Source: Allokutzneria sp. A3M-2-11 16
GTDB taxonomy: Bacteria > Actinomycetota > Actinomycetes > Mycobacteriales > Pseudonocardiaceae
Direction of reading: 5' to 3'
NCBI RefSeq assembly: GCF_024213555.1
Contig: NZ_JANAVO010000004.1
Span: forward strand, 434,001-498,000
DNA length: 64,000 bases
Position numbers and translations under genes: made by a program. The notes beneath the pieces are model-generated. The model was not told the origin of the DNA. It saw only the letters and a program-made list of their open reading frames with translations, and ran no database searches. This document shows, piece by piece, positions 12,872-23,328 of this stretch (the stretch's first letter is position 1; each line of letters opens with the position of its first letter).

Positions 12872-14002
12872 TTGACCCCCGTTTTCGACCGTGCCCGCGT
12901 CGAGGACATCGACGAGCTGCTGCGGCTCTACCGACGGGTCTACGGCGCCGCCTACGCGCTGCCCCTCGGCACCGAGCCCGCCGTCATGGCCCGGGAGATC
13001 ACCTCGGACCTGACCACCTGGATGGTCGCCCGCGAGGCGGGCGGCGGACTGGTCGCCTCGATCGTCGGCAACGTCGATCCGGCCGACCGGCTCGGCAAGA
13101 TGCAGGGCCTGGTGGTGGACCCGGCGTGCCGCGGCGGCGGCCTCGCCCAGCAGGCGGTCAGCTCGATGAGCGACGAGATGCTCGCGGACGGCCGCATCGA
13201 CTCGGTCTACGGCACGGCGCGCACCACGTCGACGGCACCGCAGCGGGTCTGCCTGCGCAGCGGTTTCCGCGCGCTGGGGATCTTCCCCAACCTCCGCAAG
13301 GCCGCCAAGCACGAGACGATGGTCCTGCTCGCCCGGCACCGCGAGGGCGTGATCGAGCGGCGGCACCCGGTCGAACGCGTCCCGGCCGCCATCGGCCCGA
13401 TCGTCGCGGCGCTCAACACGGTCGCGGGCATGCCGATGCAGCCGGAAGTGGTCCCCGAGAACGAAGCTCCCGCGGAGCAGGGGCCCTCGGTGGGCGTCGA
13501 GCTGATCAACGCGCCGGAGTTCGTGCTGCGCCGCTTCGCCGAGGTGGTCGAGCCGGACCGGGCGTTCTACCCGTTCCACAAGCCGAACATGCTGCTCGCG
13601 GCCTCCGACGGCTCGTACGAGGTGTACACGCACCTGAGCATCAGCGACGGCTACTGCACGCTGATCGGCGCCGCGCCCAACCCGATGGCCGTCGACCCGC
13701 ACATGGACCAGCTGATCAGCCAGCTCGGCAACTTCGGCGCGTTCTACGTCGAGACCCTGGTCCCGCTGCACGCCTTCGACGAGCTGTCCTCGTTGCTCGC
13801 GCACGGGTTCCTCCCCGCGGCCGTCTACCCGGCGATGCGCAGGGACGGCGACCTGTTCCGCGACTACGTGGTGATGGCGCGGACGATGCAGCCGCTGGAC
13901 TTCCGCGGACTCGCGATCGACGCGGCGTTCCGGCCGTTCGTCGAGCAGTACATCGACCTCTGGAAGCAGAAGTACCTCAACACGATCGGGGTGTTCCGGT
14001 GA
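12872..14002 (+). CDS. GNAT-type acetyltransferase, first gene of the LuxE/LuxC operon
   Basis: Predicted 376 aa from TTG 12872, chosen because AAGGAG lies five bases upstream; GTG 12851 is an alternative. Residues about 5-150 form a GNAT domain: RARVEDIDELLRLYRRVYG, then GLVVDPACRGGGLAQQAV (the acetyl-CoA pyrophosphate loop), and RVCLRSGFRALG. The remaining ~220 residues form a second alpha/beta region (FVLRRFAEVVEPDRAFYP, YEVYTHLSISDGYCTLIGA) that I do not recognise. It may be a degenerate second GNAT fold. Its stop overlaps the LuxE-like gene by 4 bp, so it probably acts in the same pathway, acylating or deacylating an amine intermediate. Confidence 0.75.
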   Translation: MTPVFDRARVEDIDELLRLYRRVYGAAYALPLGTEPAVMAREITSDLTTWMVAREAGGGLVASIVGNVDPADRLGKMQGLVVDPACRGGGLAQQAVSSMSDEMLADGRIDSVYGTARTTSTAPQRVCLRSGFRALGIFPNLRKAAKHETMVLLARHREGVIERRHPVERVPAAIGPIVAALNTVAGMPMQPEVVPENEAPAEQGPSVGVELINAPEFVLRRFAEVVEPDRAFYPFHKPNMLLAASDGSYEVYTHLSISDGYCTLIGAAPNPMAVDPHMDQLISQLGNFGAFYVETLVPLHAFDELSSLLAHGFLPAAVYPAMRRDGDLFRDYVVMARTMQPLDFRGLAIDAAFRPFVEQYIDLWKQKYLNTIGVFR

Positions 14003-15159
14003 GCAGTTACCTCGGCCCGGTCACGGTGCCGGACCCCTCGGCCCTCGCCGAGGTCCAACGGCTGTGCGATCTCGCGGAGCCCTACGACGTCGGCCCGGGC
14101 GCCGACGCGTTGTTCGTCGCCGCGATGAACGAGTCGAACCGGTGGCACGCCGAGCGCTCGCCGTTCTTCGCGAACCTCTGGGGCGCGGGGGAACCGCTGG
14201 AGTCCATTGAGGACATTGCGCGGCAGCCCTTCGTGCACGCGAACTTCTTCAAGATGCACGAGGTCGTCTCGATCCCGCGCGAGGACGTCAAGCTGCACGT
14301 GACCTCCTCGGGCACCACCGGGCAGAAGTCGCAGATGTTCTTCGACGACTGGACGTTGCGCTCCGGGCAGCGCATGGTGGCGCGGATCTTCGAGCACTAC
14401 GGCTGGATCGACCCGAGCCGCCCGGTGGACTACCTGATCTACACCTACCAGCCCAAGCCGGGGGTGAACCTCGGCGCGTCGTTCACCGACCACTACCTGT
14501 GCGACTTCGCACCGGTGCGGCGGGTGGAGTACGGGCTGCCCAGCACCGGGAACGGCCACGAGTTCGACGCTTTCGGCGCTGTGCGGGCACTTCTGCGCTC
14601 GGCCGAGGACGGCGTGCCGGTGCGGATCTTCGGCTTCCCCGCGTTCCTGTCCTTCACCCTTGACCGGATGCGCTCGCTCGGCCTGCCGCCGGTGAACCTC
14701 TCCGACGACTCGCTCGTGCTCTTCGGCGGCGGGTGGAAGGGCAACGCGGACAAGCAGATCAGCAAGCGCGAGCTGTACGCGAAGATCACCGATCAGCTCG
14801 GCATCCCGGACGAGCGCATTCGCGACGGCTTCGGCTCGGTCGAGCACTCCGTGCCCTACATCGAGTGCGCGCGGCACAACATGCACGTGCCCGTGTGGTC
14901 GCGCGTGCTGATCCGCGACGTGCGCACGCTGGAGCCGATTCCGTTCGGCGAGCCCGGCTACCTCCAGTTCGTCTCGCCGTTCATCACCTCGGCGCCCGCG
15001 CAGAGCGTGCTCATGGGCGACCTCGCGACGCTGCACACCCCGGCGGAGTGCGGTTGCGGCCTGGACACGCCGTGGTTCGAGATCCGCGGCCGCGCCGGGC
15101 TGAGCCGCAACAAGAGCTGCGCCATCGCCGCCGCCGAACTCCTGAAGGACAAGTCGTGA
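13999..15159 (+). CDS. LuxE-like acyl-protein synthetase (adenylate-forming)
   Basis: Predicted 386 aa, near LuxE length. The adenylation loop SSGTTGQKS is at residues 103-111, followed by TYQPKPGVNLGASF and GFPAFLSFTLDRM typical of LuxE. FGSVEHSVPYIEC matches the Gly-x-Glu-His segment, and CGCGLDTPWFEIRGR ends the core. The tail SRNKSCAIAAAELL places a Cys near residue 374, where LuxE carries its acyl-accepting cysteine. Known role: ATP-dependent activation of a carboxylic acid and transfer to the reductase LuxC. GTG 13999 overlaps the GNAT stop, and its own stop overlaps the LuxC-PaaK fusion. No luciferase genes are present, so the acid feeds another product. Confidence 0.85.
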   Translation: MSSYLGPVTVPDPSALAEVQRLCDLAEPYDVGPGADALFVAAMNESNRWHAERSPFFANLWGAGEPLESIEDIARQPFVHANFFKMHEVVSIPREDVKLHVTSSGTTGQKSQMFFDDWTLRSGQRMVARIFEHYGWIDPSRPVDYLIYTYQPKPGVNLGASFTDHYLCDFAPVRRVEYGLPSTGNGHEFDAFGAVRALLRSAEDGVPVRIFGFPAFLSFTLDRMRSLGLPPVNLSDDSLVLFGGGWKGNADKQISKRELYAKITDQLGIPDERIRDGFGSVEHSVPYIECARHNMHVPVWSRVLIRDVRTLEPIPFGEPGYLQFVSPFITSAPAQSVLMGDLATLHTPAECGCGLDTPWFEIRGRAGLSRNKSCAIAAAELLKDKS

Positions 15160-17672
15160 ACCAACATTACTGGCAGGGCGAGTGGGTCGACGACGCCGAG
15201 GCCGACCGCAGACTGTCCACTTTGGAGGAAGCGACCCAGGCCGTGCTCGGCCAGGAGCCGCTGAGCCCGCTGATCGTGATGGCCGCGGCGGAGCGCGTGG
15301 TCAAGCACCTCGCCGACGCGGAAAGCCCGGTGCGCCAACGGCTCGCGCAGCGTCTGGTGGACTGGAACGTGCCCGCGGAGGAGATCGAGCAGACCCTCGG
15401 CGGGCTGTGCGGGGCGCTGGCCCGGCCGACCATCGAGAAGAAGGTCGTCCGCGAGCTGGGCAGCGTCGACCCGAACCGCTTGGCGCGCTTCGACTTCCGC
15501 AAGCAGGTCTTCGAGGCGTGGGTGCCGGTCGGCCTGCTCGCGCACATCGCCCCGGGCAACGCGCCCGCCGCGGGTGCGCTGAGCTGCCTGGAGGGGCTGC
15601 TCTCCGGCAACCTCAACGTGGTCAAGACCAGCGGCGACGACTCGCGGTTCACCGCCGAGCTGCTGTCCGCGCTGGCCGAGGCCGACCCGACCGGGCAGAT
15701 CGCCGAGCGGGTGATCGTGCTGCACTACTCCTCCAGCCGCCGCGAGTGGCTGGAGCGGATGTGCGCCCCCGCCGACGCCGTCGCCGCGTGGGGCGGCGAG
15801 GAGGCCCTGGCAGGCGTCGCGTCCGTGCTGCGCCCGGGATGCCGACTGGTGGACTGGGGCCCGAAGCTCTCTTTCGCTTACCTGACAAGCGATTCCTGGT
15901 CGAACACGGAGACCCTGCGCGCGGTGGCCGCCGATGTTTGCGCCATGGACCAGCAGGCGTGTTCGAGTCCGCAGGTGATCTACCTGGACACCGACGACGC
16001 TGAGGTCTTCGCGTTCGCCGAGCGCTTCGCCGCTGTGCTGGACGATGTGGTCGCCACCGTCGAGTGCCGCGAGCCGAGCGCCCCGGAATGGGCCGAGATC
16101 ACCAACACCGTGCTCGTCACGGAGCTGGAGCAGCACCTCGGCCTCACCAAGGTCCACAAGACCGACTCGTGGCGCGTGCTCGCCGACACCCGCTCCGCGC
16201 TCCGGGCCTCGCCGCTCTACCGCACGGTCTGGGTGAAGTCCTTGGCGCGCAAGGAGATCTCCGCGGTTCTGCGGCCGATGCGGCGCTATCTCCAGACGGT
16301 CGGCCTCGGCGCGAACCGGCAGGACACCGCGGCACTGACCCGCAGCCTCATCGCGGCGGGCGTGCAGCGCGTGACCGTGCCCGGTGCGATGCTCGGCAGC
16401 TACGACGGCGAGCCGCACGACGGTGTCTACGCGTTGCAGCGCTACAGCCGCCGCGTCGATGTGCAGCTGGACGAGCGTTTTGACCGCGACGCGTGCCTGG
16501 ACGACCTGGTGAGTGCGCGGAAGTTGCCGCCGCCCACTGTGCCGGTCACCACGAAGGCGCGGTTCGACGAACTCCAGGACGACCTCAGCCGCGCCGAGGT
16601 GTTCTTCCGCAGCGGTGGCACCACGGGCGCTCCGAAGCTGTCCGCGTTCAGCTGGGCCGACTACGACGAGCACATGCGCCACGGCGCCGAGGGCATGATC
16701 GCGGCCGGGTTCGACCCGCGCACCGACCGCACGATGAACCTGTTCTTCGGCGGTCAGCTCTACGGCGGTTTCCCGAGCTTCTTCTCGGTGCTGGAGCGGC
16801 TTGAGGCCGTGCAGTACCCGATGGCGGGCCAGCAGAACGAGCACGAGATGGTCGCTCAGTCCATTGTGGACAACAAGGTGGACACCGTGCTCGGGATGCC
16901 GAGCTACCTGTTGCGGTTGTTCGACGAGGCCGGAGACACGCTTCGCGCCTACCGCGGCATCCGCAAGGTCTTCTACGGCGGCGAGCACTTCAGCGAGCAG
17001 CAGAAGCGTTGGCTGACCCAGGAATTCGGCGTAGAGCTGATCCGCTCCGCCGCCTACGGAAGCGTCGACGGCGGGCCGCTGGGCTACCAGTGCCTGGAGT
17101 CGCCGTCGCGGGTGCACCACCTCTTCGCCGGTATCCAGACGCTGGAGATCCTGGACCAGGAGGAGGACCGCCCGGTCGGCCCCGGCGAGACCGGACGCCT
17201 CGTCTTCACCGCGCACACCCGGCGCGGGCAGCGGCTGGACCGCTACGAGATCGGCGACCTCGGGCGCTGGCTGGACGAGGAATGTCCTTGTGGCAGAAGG
17301 ACTCCGCGTTTCGAGCTGCTCGGCAGGGTCGGTGATGTGTTCCGCAGCGGCGGGCACTTCCTCAACTACCGCAGGTTCGTCTCGGCGGCGGGCGAGGCGT
17401 TCGACTACGCCGGTGACCTCCAGATCGTGCTGGACGAGATCGGCGACCAGGAGCGGCTGACCATCCGCCTAGACCGCGACCGCGCCCCGTCCGACACCGA
17501 GGAGGTGTGGGCGGAGTTCGTCCAGCGCTACCCCGACCTGGAGACCACCGCGGTGCGGGACCAGCTGGTGTCCCTGCACATCGAACTCGCCCCCGCCGAG
17601 GAGTTCAAGCGCACCACCAACAGCGGGAAACTTGTTGCCGTCGTGGACAACCGGGAGCGCAACGGTGCTTGA
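15156..17672 (+). CDS. LuxC-like acyl reductase fused to a PaaK-like adenylate-forming domain
   Basis: Predicted 838 aa, about twice the length of LuxC. Residues 1-435 are LuxC-like (aldehyde-dehydrogenase fold): HIAPGNAPAAG near 130 and catalytic-cysteine motif QQACSSPQ with Cys269. Residues about 445-838 are a phenylacetate-CoA-ligase-like adenylation domain: loop RSGGTTGAPK at 485-494, AYGSVDGGPLGYQ near 632, YEIGDLGRW near 699, and a CPCGR motif followed by GRVGD. LuxC reduces an enzyme-bound acyl thioester to aldehyde with NADPH. The fused ligase could activate a second acid or load the reductase directly. The fusion is unusual. GTG 15156 overlaps the LuxE-like stop by 4 bp. Confidence 0.85.
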   Translation: MNQHYWQGEWVDDAEADRRLSTLEEATQAVLGQEPLSPLIVMAAAERVVKHLADAESPVRQRLAQRLVDWNVPAEEIEQTLGGLCGALARPTIEKKVVRELGSVDPNRLARFDFRKQVFEAWVPVGLLAHIAPGNAPAAGALSCLEGLLSGNLNVVKTSGDDSRFTAELLSALAEADPTGQIAERVIVLHYSSSRREWLERMCAPADAVAAWGGEEALAGVASVLRPGCRLVDWGPKLSFAYLTSDSWSNTETLRAVAADVCAMDQQACSSPQVIYLDTDDAEVFAFAERFAAVLDDVVATVECREPSAPEWAEITNTVLVTELEQHLGLTKVHKTDSWRVLADTRSALRASPLYRTVWVKSLARKEISAVLRPMRRYLQTVGLGANRQDTAALTRSLIAAGVQRVTVPGAMLGSYDGEPHDGVYALQRYSRRVDVQLDERFDRDACLDDLVSARKLPPPTVPVTTKARFDELQDDLSRAEVFFRSGGTTGAPKLSAFSWADYDEHMRHGAEGMIAAGFDPRTDRTMNLFFGGQLYGGFPSFFSVLERLEAVQYPMAGQQNEHEMVAQSIVDNKVDTVLGMPSYLLRLFDEAGDTLRAYRGIRKVFYGGEHFSEQQKRWLTQEFGVELIRSAAYGSVDGGPLGYQCLESPSRVHHLFAGIQTLEILDQEEDRPVGPGETGRLVFTAHTRRGQRLDRYEIGDLGRWLDEECPCGRRTPRFELLGRVGDVFRSGGHFLNYRRFVSAAGEAFDYAGDLQIVLDEIGDQERLTIRLDRDRAPSDTEEVWAEFVQRYPDLETTAVRDQLVSLHIELAPAEEFKRTTNSGKLVAVVDNRERNGA

Positions 17673-18903
17673 TCAACTCGTCAAACTCGTCCGGGACAGC
17701 TCGCCGTTCTACGGGGAGCTGTACAAGGACCTGCCGGACGCGCCCGCGCTCGAAGACCTCCCCGTGGTGGAGCACGGCGCGTACTGGGCGGCGAACACGT
17801 TGCTGGACAACAAGCTGCGCACCGGTGAGCACATCGGCGGGATCATCTTCAAGAGCGGTGGCACCACGAGCGCGCCGAAGGTATCGGTCTACACGCGGGC
17901 CGAGTGGCGGGAGATGAGTGAGACCTTCTCCAAGGGGCTCGTCGCCGCCGGGCTGCGCGAGGGCGACCGCGTCGCGAACCTGTTCTACGCCGGGGAGCTG
18001 TACTCCAGCTTCATCTTCACCCTCAACGCGTTGCAGGACGCGCCGGTGGACACCGTGCAGCTGCCGATCGCAGGCTCCGCGACGCTGGAGTTCGTCACCA
18101 GCGCGCTGCTGGAGTTCGACGCCACGGTGCTCACCGCGCCGCCCACGTCGCTCTGCCAGCTCGCCCAGCACGTGCGGGACACCGTCGGCTCGCTGCCGCT
18201 GATCCGCCTGGTGCTGTTCAGCGGTGAGGCGTTCTACGGTGATCAACGCGAGCTGCTGGCGTCGGCGTTCCCCAACGCGTCCGTGCGCTCCATCGGCTAC
18301 GCCAGCGTGGACGGCGGCATCATCGGCGCGCCCGTGCACGGCGAGGACGACGCCCGCGTGCACCAGGTCTACCCCGGCCGGATCATGGAGATCCTGGACG
18401 AGGACAACGGAAATCCCATCACCGAGTCCGGCCGCGCGGGCCGCATCGTCGTCACCGACCTGGTTCGGACGCTCCAGCCGGTGCTGCGCTACCCGGTCGG
18501 TGACCGCGCCGAGTGGGTGGACTTCGACGCGAGGACCTTCCGTCTGCTCGGCCGTTCCGGCGAGGGCGCCCGCGTCGGCCCGGTGACCCTGTATCTCGAT
18601 GATCTCCTGGAAATCGTGCGGAATGCCGCTGGTGGACAGGGGATCACCGGTGGACAGGTCGTGCTGCGCCGCCGCGAGGCCAAGGACCAGCTCGTGCTGC
18701 GCCTTGCCGGGGACGTGACGGACCCGTCCGAACTGTCGAGGGCCATCGCGGCGCGGCTGGACGAGACCCGGCCGATGTTCGCCGACCACGTGGCGCGCGG
18801 GCTGATCCAGCCGTTGGCCATCGAATGGGTCGGCACCACCGGGCTGACCACCAACCCCCGCACCGGCAAGCTCGTGCGGCTGATCGACGAGCGTGGCGCA
18901 TGA
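17665..18903 (+). CDS. Stand-alone PaaK-like adenylate-forming ligase
   Basis: Predicted 412 aa. Adenylation loop KSGGTTSAPK at residues 63-72, GYASVDGGIIGAP in the place of the second ATP motif, and RYPVGDRAEWVDF as the YxxGD-like motif. It is similar in layout to the C-terminal half of the preceding fusion (shared SVDGG and PVG/EIGD segments), so the two are probably paralogous. The start GTG 17665 has GGGAG upstream and overlaps the fusion's stop by 8 bp. Likely role: activation of an acyl or amino-acyl substrate as adenylate or thioester in the same pathway. Substrate unknown. Confidence 0.82.
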   Translation: MLDQLVKLVRDSSPFYGELYKDLPDAPALEDLPVVEHGAYWAANTLLDNKLRTGEHIGGIIFKSGGTTSAPKVSVYTRAEWREMSETFSKGLVAAGLREGDRVANLFYAGELYSSFIFTLNALQDAPVDTVQLPIAGSATLEFVTSALLEFDATVLTAPPTSLCQLAQHVRDTVGSLPLIRLVLFSGEAFYGDQRELLASAFPNASVRSIGYASVDGGIIGAPVHGEDDARVHQVYPGRIMEILDEDNGNPITESGRAGRIVVTDLVRTLQPVLRYPVGDRAEWVDFDARTFRLLGRSGEGARVGPVTLYLDDLLEIVRNAAGGQGITGGQVVLRRREAKDQLVLRLAGDVTDPSELSRAIAARLDETRPMFADHVARGLIQPLAIEWVGTTGLTTNPRTGKLVRLIDERGA

Positions 18904-20126
18904 GCACTCCTACGCGGCAGCGCCCGCTTTTGTTGCGCAACAAGAACTTCGCGCTGGTCTGGATCGGCCAGGTGCTCAGCCAGGGCGGCACGCGGGTCTA
19001 CCAGATCGCGTTGCTGTGGTGGTTGCTCGGCCAGCTGCCGGAGAACGTCCGCGGCATCGCCTCCGGCGCGTTCCTGGTGATGGGCGCGCTGCCGCCGTTG
19101 CTCCTGATGCGCCACATCGGCGGGCTGATCGACCGCGTGCCCAGCCGCAGGGTGATGCTCCGCGCGGAGCTGATCGCGTGCGCCGTGGTCACCGTGCTGG
19201 CCGTTTTCGCTTGGCAGGACGCGGTTCCGGTGTGGTCGGTGTACGTGGTCGCGCTGATCCTCGCGGTGTGCCAGGCGTTCTTCGACCCGTGCCTGCTCAA
19301 GGCGATGCCGGAGTTGGTGGAGGGCAAGGACGTCGAGCGCGCGGTCGGCTTCGGCACGTCGACGCAGTCGGTGGCGAACTTCGCTGGTGCCGCCTTCGGC
19401 GCGGTGCTGCTCGCCACGGTCGGCTTCACCGGCGCGGTCATGATCAACGCGGCGAGCTACGCGGTGGCCGCGGTGTGCCTGTACTTCGCGCGCTTCACGC
19501 CGCTGCCCGTTTCTCCTCCGCCCCCTGGGGAAGCTCCTCCGCAAGAGCACAAGAGCACGTGGAAGTTCCTGGGCTCCATGCCTTCCGTGCGCCCGCTGCT
19601 CGTGTGCTTCGCCGCCGCGAACTTCTTCTCCGCGCCGACGCTGCTGGTGCTGCCGCTGTACACGAAGCTCGTGCTGGAGCAGGAAGCCGGGACGCTCGCG
19701 ATCCTGGAAGCCGCGCTGTGGCTCGGATTGCTGCTCGGTGCCTTCAGCGCGGCGAACATCCCGACCGCGGGCCGCACCGTGCGCTTCGGGGCACTGTGCA
19801 TCGCCGCGTTCGGTGTCTTCCTCGCGATCCCGGGCTTGGTGACGAACACGGTGATCTACGCCGTGGTGCTCGCGCTGGCCGGACTCTGCCTGGGCGTGTC
19901 GAACGTGAAGTTCACCGCGTTGTTCCAGGTAGCCGTCCCGAACGAGGTGAAGGGCCGCTTCTTCGCGGCACTCCAGGCCGCCATCAGCTCCACGTTCCCC
20001 GTCGCATTCCTAGCCTTCGGCGCCTTCGGCGACGCCATCGGCCCCCAACTCCTCACCCTGGCCCAGGGCGCGGGCCTGCTCATCTTCGCGTTGGTCCTGG
20101 CCCGCATCCCCGAACCCCCCACCTAA
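18900..20126 (+). CDS. MFS transporter, probable exporter for the LuxE/LuxC pathway
   Basis: Predicted 408 aa, about 10-12 helices. The first half has the MFS_3 pattern found in enterobactin/macrolide-type exporters: FALVWIGQVLSQGGTRVYQIALLWW, GGLIDRVPSRRVML (the loop 2-3 motif A) and LVEGKDVERAVGFGTSTQSVANFAGAAFG. A proline-rich central loop (PVSPPPPGEAPP) separates the halves. ATG 18900 overlaps the ligase stop by 4 bp, making it the last gene of the operon; a hairpin repeat 15 bp downstream may end transcription. Export of the pathway's product is the simplest role. Confidence 0.85.
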   Translation: MSTPTRQRPLLLRNKNFALVWIGQVLSQGGTRVYQIALLWWLLGQLPENVRGIASGAFLVMGALPPLLLMRHIGGLIDRVPSRRVMLRAELIACAVVTVLAVFAWQDAVPVWSVYVVALILAVCQAFFDPCLLKAMPELVEGKDVERAVGFGTSTQSVANFAGAAFGAVLLATVGFTGAVMINAASYAVAAVCLYFARFTPLPVSPPPPGEAPPQEHKSTWKFLGSMPSVRPLLVCFAAANFFSAPTLLVLPLYTKLVLEQEAGTLAILEAALWLGLLLGAFSAANIPTAGRTVRFGALCIAAFGVFLAIPGLVTNTVIYAVVLALAGLCLGVSNVKFTALFQVAVPNEVKGRFFAALQAAISSTFPVAFLAFGAFGDAIGPQLLTLAQGAGLLIFALVLARIPEPPT

Positions 20127-20140
20127 CCCAGCCACCTTTT

Positions 20141-20203
20141 CCCGTTTCGTACTCTTAGCCGGATTTTGGATCGTTCAAAAACCCGATAAGAGTACGAAAC
20201 GGG
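20141..20203. repeat. Hairpin repeat, family CCGTTTCGTACTC, copy 2
   Basis: Perfect 17-bp arms (CCCGTTTCGTACTCTTA at 20141-20157, its complement at 20187-20203) around a 29-base loop. It shares the 13-bp CCGTTTCGTACTC core with 3137-3197. It follows the MFS stop by 15 bp, where a terminator would be expected. Confidence 0.8.
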
Positions 20204-20315
20204 ATTGGTTTGGACCACGTTAGCCCGCGTTGAGGGGGCGCGGGGTGTGCCACATGGGGTGGAGAGTACTTCAAATCGCGGACGCGGGCGAAGTTCAGCG
20301 GGCAGGATCAGCGGC

Positions 20316-22184
20316 GTGAAGCTTCGTGTGCTCAGTGTGGTGATCGTGCTGGCCGGGGCTGTGGGCCCGGCCGCGGCGAACGCGAGAGAAGCGGCGGTCG
20401 AACCGTGCAACCGCGTCGCGGTGGGGCCAGCGCAGGTCGTCGTGGACAATCCGACGCGGCAGCGGCTCGGGCTCAACGGCTGGCCGGACACGGCCTTCGG
20501 CGTGCTGCCGGAGGGCAACGGCAACTACAAGTTCCTGTCCACGGCCGCACTGGTCGGCGCGGGCGGGCAACCGCAGAGCATCGCCGTCACGCGCGGCACG
20601 CTGGACAACCCGGTCGCGGGCGGCGTGGTCAGCATGAAGCAGGTGACCGGGCTCGCGCCGCCCTACCAGTACGCGGGCGGCGGGCCGGTCTACCGCGATC
20701 CGGGCAGCGGACTCGTCCTCCAGGTGCTGCACCTGGAGCGCAAACTCAGCGAGCAGCACCACTTCTACGCCGACCTGCATCTCGGCGTGCACGACCCGGC
20801 CACCGGCGCGACCACGTTGATCGGCGAGATCGTCAGTCCCGACATGGACTTCGCCACCGCCGACCAGCACGACCTGACCGCCGACATCGGCACCTCCTCG
20901 CTGGTGCCCCGCGACGGCCACCTGTACCTGTACTTCCCGGACTACTCCTTCGAGAACGGCGGCTTCAAGGCGACCGGCCTGTCCGTCGCGCGGGCGCCGC
21001 TCGCCGAGGTGATCGACGCGGCGAAGCGCAAAACCGTTACCCCGTGGGCGAAATTCCACCAGGGTGGGTGGAGCTCGGCGGGCAAGAACGGGCCGTCGAC
21101 GTCACTGCGCGAGGCGGTCGGACCGTGGCACCCCAACGTCGTGCGCACCACCCGCGGTGGCACGATCATGGTGGCGGGCAACAGCATCACGGAGTTCGAG
21201 TTCTCCCACTCGCCGAACGGCATGACCGGCTGGACGCCCGCGCAGCCGCTGTTCCGCGACCCCGAGCGCGGCAACGCCTATCCCACCGTCGTCGGTCTCG
21301 GCGCCGATCCCTCGGTGGTGGACGACAAGTTCTACGTCTACTACCTCCAGTGGGCCAAGGCCGGTGACTGGAGCAACGCCGTGGCGATGCGCCGCCTGAT
21401 CACCTGCGTCGCGGGGCGCCCCGCCGGCCAGAGCGCGTTGGTGGGTTTCTCGAACGGCACGCAGCACCGGACCACCACGGACGCCGAGCGCACCCCGGGT
21501 TTCGCTCCGGTGGAAGGAAAGCTGTGGCACCTGGCCGACGCTCCAGCCGACAACACCACGGGCATTCACAGCTGCCGCAACGGTGCGAGCGACCAGTTCC
21601 TGTCGAAGGACCCGGGTTGCGAGGGCAAGCAGAACTCGATCCTCCAAACGGAGGGCTGGCTGTACAACGCTCCCCCTGCCGCACCGTCGACGCCGTTGTA
21701 CCGCTGCCGCGTGGGCGGCACGCACTACACCGCGACCACAGAAGCCTGTGACAACAAGGCGGGTGCGGTCTCGGACGGTCTGCTCGGCCACGCGCTCACT
21801 TCGCCCAAGCGCGCTTTCTCCCGCTTCTACGACGGCCGCGAGCATTGGGACACCAGCGGCCCGGTCACCGCGCGCTACTCGTTGGAGCACCGATACTTCC
21901 TGGAGAACTCGACCAAGCCGGGCACGGTGCCGCTCTACGGCTGCTCCTACACGAGCGCCAAGGGGCTCAACCACTTCACGTCGCTGCGCGAGGACTGCGA
22001 GGGGCAGACGAAGCTGCGCGTCGAGGGATGGATCTACCCCGCCAAGCCCGCCGAGCCGTCGGTCGAACTGCACCGGTGCTACTGGAAGGACCAGGACGAC
22101 CACTTCCTGACGCCGTTCCGAAACTGTGAGAACGTTCCGAACCACGTCTACGAGAGCTCATTCGGCTTCGCGCTCACGAGTTGA
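20316..22184 (+). CDS. Secreted protein: propeller-like N-domain plus cysteine-bearing C-terminal repeats
   Basis: Predicted 622 aa from GTG 20316. Residues 1-23 are a Sec signal peptide ending AAANA. Residues about 30-370 look like a beta-propeller (GNYKFLSTAALV, GGPVYRDPGSGLVLQVLHLE, SSLVPRDGHLYLYFPDYS, VYYLQWAKAGDW), reminiscent of GH43/GH32-type sugar hydrolases, though no catalytic triad could be assigned. From about 370 there are roughly six 35-50 residue units of the type LYRC..HYT..T..AC and LYGC..NHFTS..DC..EGWIYP, a repeat common in secreted lectin-like modules (DUF5648-like). Probably an extracellular carbohydrate-binding protein. It overlaps the minus-strand neighbour tail-to-tail by 11 bp. 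Confidence 0.7.
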   Translation: MKLRVLSVVIVLAGAVGPAAANAREAAVEPCNRVAVGPAQVVVDNPTRQRLGLNGWPDTAFGVLPEGNGNYKFLSTAALVGAGGQPQSIAVTRGTLDNPVAGGVVSMKQVTGLAPPYQYAGGGPVYRDPGSGLVLQVLHLERKLSEQHHFYADLHLGVHDPATGATTLIGEIVSPDMDFATADQHDLTADIGTSSLVPRDGHLYLYFPDYSFENGGFKATGLSVARAPLAEVIDAAKRKTVTPWAKFHQGGWSSAGKNGPSTSLREAVGPWHPNVVRTTRGGTIMVAGNSITEFEFSHSPNGMTGWTPAQPLFRDPERGNAYPTVVGLGADPSVVDDKFYVYYLQWAKAGDWSNAVAMRRLITCVAGRPAGQSALVGFSNGTQHRTTTDAERTPGFAPVEGKLWHLADAPADNTTGIHSCRNGASDQFLSKDPGCEGKQNSILQTEGWLYNAPPAAPSTPLYRCRVGGTHYTATTEACDNKAGAVSDGLLGHALTSPKRAFSRFYDGREHWDTSGPVTARYSLEHRYFLENSTKPGTVPLYGCSYTSAKGLNHFTSLREDCEGQTKLRVEGWIYPAKPAEPSVELHRCYWKDQDDHFLTPFRNCENVPNHVYESSFGFALTS

Positions 22185-23136
22185 GCAGGGCGGGGCGCTG
22201 AATCCACTGGTGCGTCCCGGCGGTGAACTGCCGCAGGTGGTCGATGTGCCGGAGCAGGCGCTCCCCGTCCGTCAGGCCGAGACCGAGTTCGACGGCGAGC
22301 GCGGGGACCTCGGTGATCGCCAGGTTCTCGAAGCGGCGCAAGCGTTCCGTGCCGAGGTTGTTCAGGATCTCGCCCGCCCGTTGCGACGAACAGCCGAGGA
22401 ATCGTGCGTACACGTGGACGCCGTTGTTGGTCGTCATGCCGCGGCTGCCGTCCTCCTGGTAGCTCCACGCGTCCCGTTGCGGCGCGGTGGCTTCGAAGAA
22501 AGCGGCCAGCAGCGCGCGCATGGGCCACGTCGAAAACACCTGTCGCGGCAGCTCGTCGTCGATGAGGTGCCGGATCAGGTCGTGAGCCCAAGGCACGCCA
22601 AGGGTTCTCGTGCGCGTCGCCAGATAGCTGCTCGGGTCGGGCACCCGGTTCTGGCAGAGGTTGAACAGCTCCTCCACGTGGGCGTCGACGTAGCACTGGA
22701 TGTTGCGGCGTAAGCGTTCTCTCTGCTCGGCTGGCATCGTCCGCGTCGTGCGGGGCCACAGGTCCACGAGGCCCCGCTCGGCCGGGTTCCCGGGCGTCAA
22801 CGCCTCCGTCGTCGTGAACGCCACCAGTCTGCGGGCGAAGAGCTTCGCTCCGCCGATGTCACGTGTTCGTCGGTACTCACCGAAGTGCCCGGCCAGGTAG
22901 AAACCCCAGATGTGCCATTCGCTGAGCAGGAACAGCGCCGCTTCCGCGGCCTCCGGGTGCGTGTGCGCGGCGAACGTGGCCGCCCCGAGCTCGTCGATGT
23001 CGCGCTCGTCCCACAGGCCCGCGAGCATGCCCGTCCGGCGCGCCCAGTCCCTCGCGTGCGCGCCCGCCTCGGCCGCGCGCGGATTGCTCCGCGCGGGATA
23101 GGGCCGGTACATCTCCGGTTGCCGGTAAGCGGACAT
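22174..23136 (-). CDS. Terpene-synthase-like protein lacking the metal-binding motifs
   Basis: Predicted 320 aa from ATG 23136 (AAGGGG upstream). The start YRPYPARSNPRAAEAGAHARDWARRTGML matches bacterial class I terpene synthases, as do the C-terminal stretch FLGCSSQRAGEILNNLGTERLRRFE and the overall length. Where active enzymes have a DDxxD/DDHFD box, this protein reads AGHFG. Where they have NDxxSxxxE it reads RDAWSYQED: the Ser is kept, Asn is changed to Arg and Glu to Asp. Mg2+/diphosphate chemistry is therefore unlikely by the usual mechanism. It may be a non-catalytic or repurposed member. No prenyltransferase or P450 is adjacent. Confidence 0.72.
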   Translation of the reverse strand: MSAYRQPEMYRPYPARSNPRAAEAGAHARDWARRTGMLAGLWDERDIDELGAATFAAHTHPEAAEAALFLLSEWHIWGFYLAGHFGEYRRTRDIGGAKLFARRLVAFTTTEALTPGNPAERGLVDLWPRTTRTMPAEQRERLRRNIQCYVDAHVEELFNLCQNRVPDPSSYLATRTRTLGVPWAHDLIRHLIDDELPRQVFSTWPMRALLAAFFEATAPQRDAWSYQEDGSRGMTTNNGVHVYARFLGCSSQRAGEILNNLGTERLRRFENLAITEVPALAVELGLGLTDGERLLRHIDHLRQFTAGTHQWIQRPALLNS

Positions 23137-23328
23137 GCTGCGCACCCCTTGTCGACGGCGCCAGGACCTGCCGATCAAAGCGCAGGGCCGCTAGCCCGGA
23201 CGACGTGGCAAACGGGTGACTCGTGCGGGAAATGCCGATCAGTCCATAAAGGACGGTGACGTCGTGGTTTCACCTCACCGACGCGGAGTGTTCAGGATGT
23301 CGCCACTCGAACTGGCTTCGGTGTCGTC

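Follow-up and report, generated by a model that had tools for sequence, protein, structure and literature searches.

Organization of the operon

The window analysed here is a stretch of 64,000 nucleotides from the soil actinobacterium Allokutzneria sp. A3M-2-11 16 (contig NZ_JANAVO010000004.1, positions 434,001 to 498,000), and our subject is an operon of five intact genes at positions 12872-20126 of its plus strand, which we regard as a candidate peptide aldehyde pathway. The genes encode, in this order, a GNAT-family acyltransferase, a LuxE-family acyl-protein synthetase, a LuxC acyl reductase fused to a PaaK-like ligase, a second PaaK-like ligase (PaaK2), and an MFS transporter (Table 1). 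An earlier reading of this DNA, made from the letters alone and called below the sequence-only reading, had joined the five genes by overlaps of 4-8 bp, and the successive overlaps are indeed 4, 4, 8, and 4 bp; its heading, however, put LuxE first, whereas the operon begins with the GNAT gene. The hairpin that may end the transcript had a folding energy of −43.7 kcal/mol (z −7.4), and equal stability was reached in none of 200 shuffles. A TTG stands at the first position of the GNAT gene in all three Allokutzneria, and from the two other loci we concluded that the start is either TTG 12872 or the in-frame GTG 12851.

A second strain (G001), which we infer to be Allokutzneria sp. NRRL B-24872 (NZ_MUMH01000104.1; the genus names of the other genomes were assigned in the same way), carries the same operon with 89-97% protein identity. 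Among the three Allokutzneria the ratio of nonsynonymous to synonymous substitution (dN/dS) across the operon genes was 0.09-0.31; because of these values and the conservation over many loci described below, we concluded that the operon is not due to chance.

Table 1. Positions in the window of the operon genes, the 3′ hairpin, and two downstream genes
Feature	Position	Strand	Remarks
GNAT-family acyltransferase	12872..14002	+	376 aa, TTG start (383 aa with GTG 12851)
LuxE-family acyl-protein synthetase	13999..15159	+	386 aa
LuxC acyl reductase fused to PaaK-like adenylating ligase	15156..17672	+	838 aa
Second PaaK-like ligase (PaaK2)	17665..18903	+	412 aa
MFS efflux transporter	18900..20126	+	408 aa
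Hairpin directly 3′ of MFS gene, possible transcript end	about 20140..20204	+	folding of window 20126-20215
Protein with no Pfam family	20316-22184	+	622 aa; directly after operon in two other Allokutzneria, 86-91% identical
Terpene synthase, separate from operon	22174-23145	-	PF19086

Protein families and catalytic residues

In Pfam searches LuxE matched PF04443 at 89 bits (cut-off 24.9), the two halves of the fusion matched PF05893 (LuxC; 282 bits, cut-off 21) and the AMP-binding model PF00501 (PaaK; 34 bits, cut-off 29.9), and the MFS protein matched PF07690 at 98.8 bits (cut-off 33.4). PaaK2 reached 26 bits with the AMP-binding model, under its cut-off of 29.9, and the N-terminal domain of the GNAT protein matched PF00583 at 22.7 bits (cut-off 20.7). 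The two matches within the fusion bear out the claim of the sequence-only reading that LuxC and PaaK form one 838-aa chain, and the loops SSGTTGQK, RSGGTTGAPK, and KSGGTTSAPK and the QQACSSPQ cysteine to which it had pointed are all present. Entry 7xc6 was matched twice, in its LuxE chain by the LuxE profile (E 5e-34) and in its LuxC chain by the LuxC half of the fusion (E 5e-19); PaaK2 resembled the PaaK-like ligase 6siw (E 3.6e-12).

LuxE, LuxC, and PaaK scored below cut-off with the NCBI equivalog models (LuxE 70.2 vs 550, LuxC 87.8 vs 750, PaaK 71 vs 646). The best NCBIfam match of the GNAT protein was the beta-lysine N-acetyltransferase AblB, at 33.4 bits against a cut-off of 205.1, and the matches of the MFS protein under cut-off included the efflux models MefA, MefB, and EntS. 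Both PaaK domains matched the BagE/FevW synthetase model weakly; BagE condenses without coenzyme A (CoA). The C-terminal half of the GNAT protein has no assigned family, and the idea that it is a second GNAT domain was not supported (hhalign probability 0.3%).

Residues were counted in 40 stretches, drawn from 38 genomes or records; matches had to cover more than 85% of the query and, for PaaK2 and MFS, to reach identities of at least 38% and 35%. With broken copies excluded, 37 GNAT, 37 LuxE, 37 fusion, 38 PaaK2, and 17 MFS rows were kept; loci L098, L106, and L126 lay outside this set. LuxE retained Cys374 and the TSSGT loop in all 37 aligned orthologues, the cysteine of LuxE having a recognized role in this family. 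Likewise, the fusion kept Cys269 of LuxC, the adenylation-loop GG, and its C-terminal Lys825 in 37/37 proteins, and PaaK2 kept the loop GG, Asp280, Arg297, and Lys402 in 38/38.

Conservation and distribution of the gene set

Of 390 genomes searched in the family, 30 had a LuxE orthologue, our own included (about 8%); 32 passed the threshold, and two of these (G260 and G262), which were only 28% identical, were set aside. All four enzyme genes were present at a coverage of at least 85% in 27 of the 30. Among 394 genomes drawn from the class, LuxE was found in six besides our own, all of one genus; the same six contained the fusion (five full, one ended by a contig edge), and the PaaK half alone was matched in two further class genomes. 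For locus counts we used 41 loci picked through a LuxE or fusion match: 30 from the family, six from the class, one from Kitasatospora mediocidica, and two each from Streptomyces-type and Salmonella plasmids; locus L132 was left out.

LuxE and the fusion, as the selection criterion, were present in 41/41 loci, PaaK2 in 40, a GNAT match in 38, and an MFS gene, beside or near the others, in 18. The sequence-only reading had allowed that the genes might be scattered in relatives; this was not so. GNAT, LuxE, and the fusion stood in the same order on one strand in 38/41 loci. Its picture of a five-gene unit does not extend to all loci, however. The five genes lay close together, in the order of the window and on a single strand, in seven loci, eight had the order PaaK2-MFS-GNAT-LuxE-fusion, and in three more the MFS gene adjoined a distant PaaK2, which shifts in both place and strand; in the five Crossiella loci PaaK2 lay 3-9 kb from the fusion, on the opposite strand in four. 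We therefore regard the enzyme set as four genes, with the transporter as a frequent companion. Distances between orthologues correlated at 0.88-0.96 over 33 loci, figures that are uncontrolled for species relatedness. One copy of the operon was decaying (G306, locus L098), with LuxE and the fusion reduced and GNAT and PaaK2 not found at the locus; LuxE was broken in G010 and the fusion in G307.

To compare neighbourhoods we used stretches of about 20 kb from 12 genus groups, with genes matched by family (30% identity, E 1e-15) and without gene-by-gene annotation. The most widespread other neighbour was an SDR-like family, in four of the 12 groups; all others were in fewer, including an AfsR-like regulator and a doubtful open frame in three each. 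As no other family occurred in more than four groups, the set looks nearly self-contained. This bears on two alternatives. In the first, a lipid or aryl pathway, the PaaK enzymes would make CoA esters, of which GNAT would place one on an amine while another was reduced to an aldehyde or alcohol, giving a product that is not a peptide. Phenylacetate and long-chain fatty acids are the acids for which the PaaK and LuxC/LuxE families are known, but the low equivalog scores of LuxE, LuxC, and PaaK and the shortage of shared neighbours both speak against such a pathway, and we consider it quite improbable. In the second, the genes would modify sugars or a surface structure, as in the flagellin glycosylation loci that hold LuxC; the terms LuxC, LuxE, and GNAT do co-occur in a paper on Aeromonas flagellin glycosylation. 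An MFS efflux protein near the set in 18 loci, and the fact that no neighbour family was common to most loci, make this explanation very unlikely indeed.

Relatives on plasmids

Relatives of the set also occur outside the actinobacteria. An IncF plasmid of Salmonella enterica (L105:10875-16633) carries LuxE, a LuxC/AMP fusion, PaaK, and GNAT in a row of 5.76 kb; LuxE, the fusion, and PaaK were 50%, 38%, and 39% identical to those of the window over nearly their full length, and the GNAT resembled that of the window by its N-terminal-domain profile (94.6%) and by its position in the row. A second S. enterica IncF plasmid (L106) carries LuxE, the fusion, and PaaK, with an unannotated GNAT matched in two pieces. 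Both plasmids were typed as conjugative. Part of LuxE was also seen on two other Salmonella plasmids, and part of GNAT on a Serratia plasmid. The DNA of the Salmonella LuxE-LuxC genes had no match in E. coli genome records, none of 67 pattern matches in viral contigs was a relative, and none of the three phage records matched covered 80% of the query.

The nearest relatives without PaaK that we found in the plasmid collection were two LuxE-LuxC pairs. One, 51% (LuxE) and 46% (LuxC) identical to ours, lies on the Streptomyces europaeiscabiei plasmid NZ_CP109155.1 (L108:1886-10344) in a cluster of the ribosomally synthesized and post-translationally modified peptide (RiPP) type, with an MbnB/TglH/ChrH-family enzyme, a YcaO protein, an MBL-fold protein, an MFS protein, and a 51-aa open gene. 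The possible product is a RiPP with a reduced C-terminus, and this setting suggests that a LuxE-LuxC pair can act on a peptide acid. The other pair, 36% and 33% identical, lies on the Chloroflexota plasmid CP069395.1 (L109:7868-10269), where no obvious biosynthetic gene was seen among the annotated neighbours.

Proposed pathway

On balance, we lean to the view that the product of the operon is a small, N-acylated peptide aldehyde that is exported from the cell, a leupeptin-like protease inhibitor assembled without carrier proteins. GNAT would first cap an amino acid, for example leucine, at its nitrogen. Two amide bonds would then be formed, one by PaaK2 and one by the PaaK half of the fusion, each enzyme activating an acid as its adenylate and transferring it to the amino group of the amino acid that follows. 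Once the peptide acid was complete, LuxE would adenylate it and load it onto the cysteine of LuxC, LuxC would reduce the thioester with NADPH to the aldehyde, and the MFS protein would export it. These reactions, the amino acids, and the assignment of each PaaK to a bond are predictions laid over the observed genes, families, residues, and conservation of the set, and the amino acid specificity is a guess from leupeptin. The sequence-only reading had proposed activation of two or three acids, reduction of one, and export; the enzymes and the transporter for this are present, but the count is better given as two amide bonds and one reduction.

The core of the argument, which falls short of proof, is a match in the number of enzymes. 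Most likely LuxE and LuxC act as one reductase pair; this leaves two PaaK domains and GNAT, just the number of enzymes that an N-acyl tripeptide aldehyde calls for. That pairing, again judged from sequence, most likely holds in view of the adjacency of the genes, the matches to both chains of 7xc6, and the related pairs that lack PaaK. An alternative is that the PaaK half of the fusion, rather than LuxE, loads LuxC in cis, as a one-chain carboxylic acid reductase, and that LuxE and PaaK2 activate other building blocks. The sharing of one chain by an adenylating ligase and the LuxC reductase is in keeping with this, and a precedent appears in passages on GriC, an AMP-binding protein that with GriD converts 3-amino-4-hydroxybenzoic acid (3,4-AHBA) to its aldehyde (PMC10179220); but LuxE-LuxC pairs exist without any PaaK, and LuxE lay directly 5′ of LuxC in 41/41 loci, loci that had been picked through LuxE or the fusion. 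We consider loading in cis unlikely.

Several points weigh against the peptide aldehyde pathway itself. The operon is known from its genes alone. The PaaK half could load LuxC directly and so free LuxE for another acid, and since LuxE and LuxC score far below the NCBI cut-offs for the fatty acid enzymes, function is transferred from Lux by family only. Adenylation residues vary: the loop lysine of the fusion, Lys494, is Ala in 7/37 proteins, and residue 72 of PaaK2 is Arg in 24/38. The C-terminal half of GNAT is left unexplained, the Salmonella GNAT is linked to ours by profile only (pairwise BLAST E 0.057, not significant), and there are recurring neighbours, namely the SDR-like protein and the regulator. 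Streptomyces peptide aldehydes are otherwise ascribed, in passages of PMC10548850, to nonribosomal peptide synthetases (NRPS). Finally, of the leupeptin genes leupABCD of Klebsiella, two primers, leupA_f and leupB_r, did not match the Salmonella locus even with 3 mismatches allowed, and one leup primer had no match in viral contigs. The leupA primer begins atgaagatagcg (PMC8283571, seen in excerpt), and the apparent leupA start read from it, MKIAIHN, differs from that of the Salmonella LuxE; as neither primer nor start fits this LuxE, leupA may be another ligase.

We would tentatively go further, to a possibility short of probable: that this is the actinobacterial carrier-free peptide aldehyde pathway, perhaps the genes behind the leupeptins, which were discovered first in actinomycetes, and that in it a Lux-type LuxE-LuxC pair has turned from fatty acids to peptides, with a related pair serving RiPPs and a related set having moved onto enterobacterial plasmids. 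Peptide aldehydes are standard protease inhibitors whose synthesis in actinomycetes is mostly credited to NRPS, and a carrier-free route of five genes and 7 kb is small enough to express and to dissect enzyme by enzyme. If true, the proposal would give old leupeptin enzymology its genes, show that a relative of the Lux reductase reduces peptides, and make it possible to find by sequence those peptide aldehydes that NRPS-based mining misses. No title or abstract on this actinobacterial gene set was found in the open-licence library searched.

Flanking genes

In the Pfam scan the upstream flank contained an SSF transporter, an aminotransferase, a PAP2 protein, an HxlR regulator, and a serine beta-lactamase-like protein, and the downstream flank contained the 622-aa protein, the terpene synthase, and a PhoD phosphatase. 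Of these genes, only the beta-lactamase-like one had a counterpart near the set outside its own genus group; that counterpart lies on a single Streptomyces plasmid.

Comparison with known systems

The operon resembles the LuxC-LuxE fatty acid reductase of luminous bacteria (7xc6) in that both chains were matched, the genes are adjacent, and the cysteines are present in 37/37 orthologues. Unlike that system, LuxC is fused to PaaK, the scores lie far under those of the equivalogs, and neither luxAB nor luxD was found among 15 proteins scanned with Pfam (5 of the operon and 10 flanking). We therefore ruled out a luciferase operon, in agreement with the sequence-only reading, which had called the set nonluminescent.

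Passages of PMC10179220 assign the GriC/GriD step to grixazone. By description, GriC/GriD and our set are alike in using an AMP ligase plus a reductase to give an aldehyde, and unlike in that the GriC/GriD substrate is aryl. To our knowledge, GriC/GriD have no LuxE or GNAT partner.

Antipain, flavopeptin, and livipeptin belong to the product class proposed here. According to passages of PMC10548850 such small peptide aldehydes of Streptomyces are NRPS products made with carrier proteins and R domains, and the livipeptin system also uses tRNA; in the five operon proteins, by contrast, Pfam and NCBIfam detected no carrier or R domain (A-PCP-R modules). For S. virginiae, part of PMC13273461 describes the tentative assignment of a mass to leupeptin, with no gene linked to it. 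A pyrazine reading suggested by a paper on lentzeacin was rejected, as its authors, in the passages seen, discuss a carboxylic acid reductase (CAR)-like NRPS, which is another system. Excerpts of PMC11429834, PMC8658869, PMC9177418, and PMC10676414 held nothing decisive for the operon.

The closest likeness is to leupeptin synthesis. Excerpts of PMC11212599 describe a leupeptin route in Xenorhabdus bovienii that dispenses with NRPS and relies on separate AMP-dependent ligases together with a reductase, and the claim that the operon is an undescribed system must be withdrawn to that extent: since carrier-free leupeptin from discrete ligases and a reductase is known in Gammaproteobacteria, the logic is not new. 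The Klebsiella leupABCD locus comprises four genes in 5.8 kb (315353-321183 of CP011636.1) with a transporter adjacent (PMC8283571, in part), close to the 5.76 kb of the four Salmonella genes. Products of the leup locus include leupeptin, a lysine analogue, and pyrazinones (excerpts of PMC11480411), and leupeptin is given as a region type for Photorhabdus khanii in a genome table (PMC12542766, in part). As in leupABCD, there are separate AMP-dependent ligases, here two PaaK domains and LuxE, and no NRPS, and there is a reductase of an aldehyde-forming family, a likeness that extends to family presence; the host phylum differs from that of the gammaproteobacterial leup hosts, and gene by gene the likeness is set by description only. 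The founding paper on leupABCD in Gammaproteobacteria is reportedly that of Li et al. in 2020. We propose that the operon may work as the leup pathway does; we do not equate the two. Work on Streptomyces roseus in 1979-80 is said to have described three enzymes: a leucine acyltransferase, a synthetase that makes leupeptin acid with ATP, and a leupeptin acid reductase that depends on both ATP and NADPH.

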